From positions 1 through 38,166 of the forward strand of contig SHWX01000004.1 in assembly GCA_009693615.1 (NCBI GenBank): a DNA stretch of 38,166 nucleotides, given 5' to 3'. Within the stretch, counting starts at the first letter, position 1. Every line of letters begins with the position of its first letter. The notes beneath the pieces were generated by a model. That model saw only the letters and a program-made list of their open reading frames with translations. It was not told the DNA's origin and searched no databases. This DNA is from Chitinophagaceae bacterium. Lineage in GTDB: Bacteria; Bacteroidota; Bacteroidia; Chitinophagales; Chitinophagaceae. This document shows, one piece after another, positions 16,014 through 36,247 of the stretch. The translations under genes and the position numbers were made by a program.

Positions 16014-16046
16014 AAAACCCATACAAATTGTAAGGGTTTTACTTTT
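16014..16046 (-). terminator. Hairpin terminator downstream of tRNA-Cys
   Basis: AAAACCC-atacaaattgtaa-GGGTTTT stem immediately 3' of tRNA-Cys. Confidence 0.5.
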
Positions 16047-34571: not shown

Positions 34572-35093
34572 ATGACCGAAATTCAAATAACACGCGCTGG
34601 ATTAACTGACAGAGATTTTATCAGATCTGTTTCCGAGCGCACCTGGCCCAGCACTTATGGGCATATTATATCCCAAGCACAAATCAATTTCATGATGGAC
34701 TGGATGTACAGTAATGAATCCTTAGAAAAACAAATGAATACGGGTTCTGAGTTTTATATAGCAAGTATAAAAAAAGAAAATGAGCTATGGGATGCTGTAG
34801 GATTTTGTTCGGTAAGCCCTGAGAAAGAAGACGCAAATGAGATGGCGCATAAACTCAATAAATTATATGTACTCCCCGAAGCGCAAGGTACAGGCGCAGG
34901 CAAGGCCTTATTAAATAAATGCATTGAGGTTGCCAAGGCAGCAGGATCAAACTCTTTATTCTTGCAAGTAAATAAACTAAACAACGCTTATACTTTTTAT
35001 TTAAAAAAAGGATTCATTAAAGAACGCGAATTTAAATTCGATATTGGTAACGGCTTTTACATGGACGACTATGTAATGCGGTTGAACTTCTAA
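34572..35093 (+). CDS. GNAT family N-acetyltransferase
   Basis: LNKLYVLPEAQGTGAGKALLNKCIEVAKAAGSNSLFLQVNKLNNAYTFYLKKGF. Confidence 0.92.
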   Translation: MTEIQITRAGLTDRDFIRSVSERTWPSTYGHIISQAQINFMMDWMYSNESLEKQMNTGSEFYIASIKKENELWDAVGFCSVSPEKEDANEMAHKLNKLYVLPEAQGTGAGKALLNKCIEVAKAAGSNSLFLQVNKLNNAYTFYLKKGFIKEREFKFDIGNGFYMDDYVMRLNF

Positions 35094-35629
35094 ATCTTAG
35101 GTTTTTTATCTTCTTTAAACCCAATAATATTTCTTTCATTCCATTTAACTCTATTGATAGTCAAATCTAATAAGTGTTCAATAGTATCATAAATTTTATT
35201 GAGCTGAACATCGTGTTCTCCAATTCTTTCCCTCATCTCTTGAAGCTGCCCTTTTATTGATGCATTTTTAATTAACACTCTTTTCATTTCAATAAACATT
35301 CTAATTATTGAAATATTCATCATTAGAGCTTTTTCACTTTTCAAAACTCCTGATATCATTGCAACACCGTGTTCTGTAAATGCGAATGGTGTGGCATTCT
35401 TTTTTCTTCTTCCCGCTGATGATACCGTATTTTGCGATATCATCACCTCCCATTCTTTTATAGTTAATCTAAACATGAAGTCAATTGGGAATCTTTCAAT
35501 ATTTCTTTTGACTGCCTGATTTAAACTACGAGTATCCACTTCATAAAGCATCGCCAAATCAAAATCAAACATTACCATCTCCCCTCTTACTTCATGTATT
35601 TTTTGTTGAATCAAATTTATTTCTGTCAT
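35090..35629 (-). CDS. ORF6N domain-containing protein
   Basis: VRGEMVMFDFDLAMLYEVDTRSLNQAVKRNIERFPIDFMFRLT and PFAFTEHGVAMISGVLKSEKA. Confidence 0.93.
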   Translation of the reverse strand: MTEINLIQQKIHEVRGEMVMFDFDLAMLYEVDTRSLNQAVKRNIERFPIDFMFRLTIKEWEVMISQNTVSSAGRRKKNATPFAFTEHGVAMISGVLKSEKALMMNISIIRMFIEMKRVLIKNASIKGQLQEMRERIGEHDVQLNKIYDTIEHLLDLTINRVKWNERNIIGFKEDKKPKI

Positions 35630-35700
35630 TATTTAAAATTTGACAAGTAAAATAGACTTTATAATAATTGAAGATTTAAGTATAAATACCTTTTCAGGGT

Positions 35701-35725
35701 ATGATGTCACAAATTGTGATATCAT
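35701..35725. promoter_or_regulatory. 25-bp imperfect palindrome, candidate operator
   Basis: ATGATGTCACAA-A-TTGTGATATCAT, one mismatched pair. Confidence 0.6.
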
Positions 35726-35742
35726 GCCTTAAAATTCACCTG

Positions 35743-35767
35743 ATGAGGTCACAAATTGTGACCTCAT
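35743..35767. promoter_or_regulatory. 25-bp perfect palindrome, candidate operator
   Basis: ATGAGGTCACAA-A-TTGTGACCTCAT, all 12 arm pairs complementary. Confidence 0.65.
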
Positions 35768-35794: not shown

Positions 35795-36247
35795 TTAAAT
35801 CTTAGAAATCACCACCCTTTTTAAACTTGTTTGGCGGTCGCCTGTATTGATTAAAATATCAATCTTGTTTTTGTATTTTTTATTCATTAAATCATGAATA
35901 AACCAAATACCATTAAACTTTCCGGCATTGGTCAATTCTACTTTATCTCCAAAAGCAAATAATTCTTTTAAATCACGGCTAATGGCAATCACTCTATGTC
36001 TTTTAGGATTAGCGCTGTCTAATTTAAAACCACTCGCCGTTATTAAAGGCGTGCTATCGGTTTGAGCTGTATCTGCATTATAAGTACTTAATGAAACTAA
36101 ATTCATTGACTTTAAAACAAAAGGGTATTGCATGGCAATGGCCCTTGATTCATGACTTGGTCTTAATAAATTAAAACCGCCCACGAGCATTAATAGGAAA
36201 ACCCCCATACCTAGATACTTATTATATTTCATAATGAAGTGTTTCAT
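35795..36247 (-). CDS. 3D/double-psi beta-barrel domain protein, membrane-anchored
   Basis: TPLITASGFKLD...VIAISRDLKELFAFGDKVELTNAGKFNGIWFIHDLMNKKYKNKIDIL; N-terminal TM/signal. Confidence 0.75.
   Translation of the reverse strand: MKHFIMKYNKYLGMGVFLLMLVGGFNLLRPSHESRAIAMQYPFVLKSMNLVSLSTYNADTAQTDSTPLITASGFKLDSANPKRHRVIAISRDLKELFAFGDKVELTNAGKFNGIWFIHDLMNKKYKNKIDILINTGDRQTSLKRVVISKI

Follow-up and report, generated by a model that had tools for sequence, protein, structure and literature searches.

ORF6N proteins are probably dimeric, sequence-specific regulators that bind palindromes situated in their own gene and promoter, and the twin palindromes upstream of the ORF6N gene in the window (the whole 38,166-nucleotide stretch of Chitinophagaceae DNA that was analysed) are very probably binding sites of the ORF6N protein itself. 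The palindromes, their conservation, their symmetry at the DNA level and the co-variation of a helix residue with palindrome bases, which includes a test on held-out genes, are read directly from sequences, whereas binding, dimerisation and repression are inferred and no binding or expression data are available. The roles of the widespread ORF6N, Bro-N and RhuM proteins are mostly unknown. The analysis was computational only, and many of the sequences come from metagenome assemblies.

Twin palindromes upstream of the ORF6N gene

The proximal palindrome ATGATGTCACAAATTGTGATATCAT (35701..35725, 11/12 arm pairs) and the distal palindrome ATGAGGTCACAAATTGTGACCTCAT (35743..35767, 12/12 arm pairs) are both proposed as ORF6N operators. 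A 17-bp spacer (35726..35742) sets their period, so that exactly 42 bp lie between the centres at 35713 and 35755; no strand is assigned to these three features. The twin 25-bp palindromes had been described in a first-pass annotation and were found as written there, but the distance from the ORF6N start, given as 76-140 bp, has to be corrected to 72-138 nt before the ATG. The window contains four odd palindromes in which 11 or 12 of the 12 pairs match, compared with 0.3 expected from Markov simulations, and two palindromes of one family spaced by 42 bp are not a product of chance. A palindrome at 16015-16039 of the window, AAACCCATACAAATTGTAAGGGTTT, has a CAAATTG centre and 11/12 pairs and resembles the Bro-N type. 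Dispersed repeats, which the same annotation had named as an outcome that would speak against operators, were rejected, REP-like ones included, because with one mismatch allowed the palindrome core occurred in the host genome only at the ORF6N locus (with one further place at two mismatches, in an assembly that is 74% complete), and because in 150 genomes of the family most symmetric copies lay within or beside ORF6N genes.

The ORF6N gene itself (35090..35629, reverse strand) encodes 179 aa and meets family membership, with a PF10543 score of 103.9 bits (E 5.5e-30) against a curated cut-off of 27.8. A winged-HTH-like N-domain and long helices are predicted for the protein, and the AlphaFold2 model (pLDDT 78) places a helix at residues 33-42 (TRSLNQAVKR; codons at 35504..35533, reverse strand), which is the predicted recognition helix and contains Gln38 (codon at 35516-35518, reverse strand). 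A structure search with ORF6N gave no PDB match below E 0.001. The proximal palindrome is adjoined by a TATA-like A+T-rich stretch, GGTATTTATACTTAAATC (35673..35690, reverse strand), which is conserved in most orthologous upstream regions and is a candidate ORF6N promoter; a generic promoter scan does not pick it out, and its promoter role is an inference.

The neighbours of ORF6N in the window are chromosomal genes (ValS, GNAT, Lrp-type), and of 50,697 phage records only 3 gave close matches; the idea of a phage antirepressor gene was therefore rejected for want of a phage or prophage context. The upstream gene (35795..36247, reverse strand; 150 aa, function unknown) is missing beside the array in L010, L011 and L016 and is outside the ORF6N-palindrome system. 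The direct repeat CTAAGATTTA has its right copy at the end of ORF6N (35091..35100, reverse strand) and its left copy at that of the upstream gene (35796..35805, reverse strand).

The array in orthologues and in relatives without the gene

Thirteen close ORF6N orthologues (79-97% identity) were compared, and in all 11 with enough upstream sequence an array of one to four 25-bp units was found upstream of the gene, with adjacent units at a period of 42 bp and once 43 bp. The absence of palindromes upstream of orthologues, the other outcome held to count against the proposal of a candidate autoregulatory operator pair, was thus not observed, and that proposal is supported by the array together with the helix-base co-variation described below, binding and repression being inferred. 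The 29 orthologue units hardly vary in their inner core, whereas the +-9 pair differs among them (AT 6, TA 11, CG 10 and, as a mismatch, TG 2). The changes at +-9 are symmetrical and no helix residue stands out there; dimer binding alone does not require such symmetry, which counts against the proposed reading. In each of two orthologues, one unit has its core swapped for GGTCCCGA...TCGGGACC with palindromy kept. The ATGATATC arm of the proximal palindrome occurs among the orthologues only with Arg34 (the window and L004), in contrast to the GG units seen in all Lys34 orthologues; L009 is an exception, having Arg34 yet no ATGATATC unit.

Near relatives without ORF6N are also without the array. 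In L286, which has no ORF6N, the counterparts of the upstream gene and of GNAT, with 93 and 92% identity, nearly abut, and the flanking repeat CTAAGATTTA is single at such empty sites (L286, L293 and L294, for example). The one array-only exception is L295 (1364-1573, reverse strand), where a three-unit array, including one unit with the GGTCCCGA...TCGGGACC core, is kept and ORF6N is gone, apparently by a deletion between short repeats.

A palindrome within the ORF6N coding sequence

The commonest copy of the site, which the first-pass annotation overlooked, is inside the ORF6N coding sequence, where a palindrome of the same type occupies codons ~62-71 (residue 67 in the protein of the window). 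A matching internal palindrome is present in almost all ORF6N genes examined, in several bacterial phyla and one archaeon, and examples come from Bacteroidota, Elusimicrobia, Parcubacteria, Woesearchaeota, Myxococcales, Arcobacter and others, as well as from Legionella, Treponema, Butyrivibrio, Sulfuricurvum and a small Segatella plasmid. The window copy ATGATATCGCAAAATACGGTATCAT (35419..35443, reverse strand; encoding MISQNTVSS) is decayed, and several orthologues have it intact as ATGATATCACAAAATGTGATATCAT. The only annotated genes of the 2955-bp Segatella copri plasmid (L178) are those for a replication protein and for ORF6N with its internal palindrome, and on a Treponema plasmid (L175) ORF6N is flanked by a DNA methyltransferase/regulator pair on one side and by a restriction subunit S gene on the other.

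In a synonymous-shuffle test of 146 distinct ORF6N genes, the mean best loop score was 10.9 compared with 3.9 in the shuffles, and 92% of the genes exceeded 95% of their shuffles. A score of at least 9 was reached by 79% of the loops and by only 1.2% of windows elsewhere within the same genes, and an internal palindrome was present in 68 of 71 held-out genes. Eight genes have the palindrome in another reading frame, encoding TNCD and not SQIV, and the constraint must therefore act on DNA; protein-level constraint alone is ruled out by the synonymous nulls and this second frame. Family-wide, the internal unit spans 25 bp and ends fairly sharply at +-12/13; pairing amounts to 89-98% from +-2 to +-12, and a single position may show as many as four pair types. 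The 133 internal copies contain 15 G.T and 20 A.C mismatches, and this near balance indicates a DNA-level feature and no selection for an RNA hairpin. Within the ORF6N domain, AlphaFold2 confidence is lowest at the loop that the palindrome encodes.

The units are doubled or tripled in frame in some ORF6N loops and are 42 bp apart in several genes. The duplicated or triplicated units of one loop differ from each other in L080, L164, L037 and L067. ORF6N paralogues at the same locus carry unlike palindromes (L021, L022, L040).

Co-variation of residue 38 with the palindrome core

Residue 38 of the predicted recognition helix is encoded outside the palindrome and co-varies with palindrome bases -5,-4, so that Q is found with CA (81/83), E with CG (20/20), K with TC (9/11), R mostly with GC, and L with TT or TG. 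For base -4 alone, the pairs are Q-A (81/83), E-G (20/20), R-C (11/13), K-C (9/11) and L with T or G (9/9); on the opposite strand this means E-C and R/K-G, and the code fits the usual chemistry of contacts between side chains and bases. Both upstream sites of the window have A at -4, as Gln38 predicts.

Among ORF6N gene pairs that are only 28-50% identical, a shared residue 38 raised core sharing by +0.82, column 35 by +0.61 and other columns by at most +0.22. Columns between helix and loop were weaker than column 38, which speaks against simple transfer of a shared tract. On a tree made without helix and loop, parsimony gave 38 changes of residue 38 and 41 core changes, 35 branches being common to both (p 3e-34), and Q->E accompanied by CA->CG occurred 11 times. 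The code was then applied, as fixed beforehand, to 71 further genes, where base -4 was right in 65 of 68 cases (shuffled labels: mean 25, maximum 40) and Lys34 was joined by G at -7 in 47/47; this held-out set comes from one phylum and is not fully independent. The co-variation strongly supports binding of ORF6N to the palindrome, which remains to be seen in binding data.

Palindrome copies outside the gene

In the window, L013, L016, L109, L079, L151 and L167, the internal copy is lost and the outside copies fit the gene's own helix (E38 with CG in L079, L151 and L167; Q38 with CA in L109). Outside copies are lacking in a few other genes whose internal copy is weak, and the Fisher test in this survey (p 0.03) ignored relatedness. 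Of 118 genes with a strong internal copy, 90 have no upstream copy, and a promoter operator is therefore not the rule. Beyond the window clade, the helix of the gene itself was matched by 19 of 33 external sites, compared with 13.0 by shuffling (19 of 5000 shuffles were as good), and the misfitting ones may serve paralogues or be remnants. Several external copies are downstream of the ORF6N gene.

Individual loci show further arrangements. In L079 (827-1366), the upstream palindrome occurs five times with a 128-bp period, and L151 has three downstream palindromes at ~120 bp spacing. In an 8.4-Mb genome, exact 25-bp copies surround one ORF6N gene. L172 has its internal and outside sites intact, and in genome G087 a 24/25 copy of its palindrome (L283:2586-2610) is situated 1.85 Mb from the gene, a few bases beyond the stop codon of an 858-aa ORF. 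An ORF6N-type palindrome just past a RhuM stop (L112:209) has an ORF6N remnant upstream.

Palindromes in RhuM and Bro-N genes

Analogous intragenic palindromes were found in RhuM and in part of Bro-N, at a place comparable to that in ORF6N but with another sequence and frame and with outside copies almost absent. They exceeded the synonymous null in 19 of 26 RhuM genes (PF13310; loci L199-L229) and in 19 of 44 Bro-N genes (PF02498; loci L183-L196 and L233-L248), the latter being non-DinD ones, whereas the palindrome was missing from DinD-like Bro-N. KilA-N was rejected as a further member, with only 1 of 19 genes above the null. The core class of RhuM agrees with the helix residue that precedes a conserved His (mutual information of 1.63 against a permuted maximum of 1.2), in a test of 23 genes that did not control for relatedness. 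The corresponding listing for Bro-N looks suggestive, the alignment is ambiguous, and no Bro-N code is claimed. It is likely, if a little less so than the proposal for ORF6N alone, that ORF6N, RhuM and part of Bro-N form a superfamily in bacteria and at least one archaeon whose members carry their own site in the codons of the DNA-binding domain, site and helix changing together by a simple residue-base code.

Discussion

We propose that the recognition helix (residues 33-42) of an ORF6N dimer would read the 25-bp palindrome, the usual target being inside the protein's own gene, at the codons that begin a flexible loop ~200 nt past the start, and some ORF6N genes have additional copies in their promoter region or shortly beyond the stop codon. 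In the window, the two promoter-side copies may act in place of the decayed internal copy, and dimers bound there would sit on one face of the DNA, as 42 bp corresponds to four helical turns, beside the TATA-like stretch. Bound dimers would then control ORF6N expression, most likely by repression.

The main rival to autoregulation is a selfish or recombination role, in which ORF6N does bind the palindrome, but the palindrome is a selfish or REP-like element, or else a site of recombination through which ORF6N genes with their sites are spread, duplicated and shuffled. We consider this unlikely, yet it deserves attention, as it would account for the in-frame unit duplications in loops, often mosaics of paralogue types (L080, L107, L164), for the exact copies around one gene and the remote 24/25 copy, for the downstream copies, and for the patchy, often fragmentary occurrence of ORF6N, which is there or missing as one block bounded by short direct repeats. 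However, no nuclease or recombinase domain was found, copies are few per genome, and the upstream copies of the window clade hold their position and 42-bp phasing beside the TATA-like stretch.

Two explanations in which ORF6N need not bind DNA appear very improbable. If the palindromes were RNA hairpins serving as terminator, attenuator or mRNA control element, the good RNA folding of the upstream stretch (z -4.4) and the arms of 17-22 pairs in proximal units of some orthologues would be expected, but G.U pairs are not favoured in the internal copies, there is neither a terminator-like tail nor an Rfam family, and the link to residue 38 is left unexplained; a hairpin or terminator was rejected on these mismatch, terminator and Rfam results. 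Just as hard to maintain is the suggestion that the symmetry stems from mutation only, by template switching that perfects quasi-palindromes, or that a host factor binds while ORF6N has no role. Symmetric +-9 changes among units of one array would suit this explanation, but it has to contend with the family-wide 25-bp unit and its edge, the invariant core bases, the unlike sites of paralogues at one locus, and the residue-38/base -4 code with its held-out test.

The dimeric regulator proposed here has partial counterparts among known systems. In the LacI family (PMC2978694) and in GntR subfamilies (PMC4494728), a palindromic site is described near the regulator gene, with bases that correlate with residues of the recognition helix. 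ORF6N is like them in that the site is near its own gene and its bases track the recognition helix. It differs in having its main site within the coding sequence of the regulator, at homologous codons in different phyla and not always in the same reading frame. Among intragenic operators, lac O2 and gal OI lie in enzyme genes of an operon; ORF6N shares with them a regulator site within a coding region, unlike them in that the site is in the DNA-binding protein's own gene, in its DNA-binding domain and family-wide. Rickettsia palindromic elements are palindromic DNA lying in frame within coding sequences, sometimes repeated, as in ORF6N, but the ORF6N palindromes belong to one gene family and one site and are linked to the encoded protein's helix. 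A gene flanked by its own palindrome type is likewise found in REP sequences with RAYT transposases, whereas ORF6N has few copies, no HUH nuclease and its main copy within the gene. In the open-access literature on ORF6N and related queries, mostly not in full text, we found no earlier report of the ORF6N palindrome.

If the proposal is true, the specificity of a regulator would be readable from its own gene and binding would become predictable for a large family, autoregulation of ORF6N-type genes would be directly testable, and natural matched pairs of helix and site would be available for the study of specificity change in regulators. The internal palindrome also shows that a DNA-level element has persisted within coding sequence for a very long time and has outlasted a switch of reading frame.
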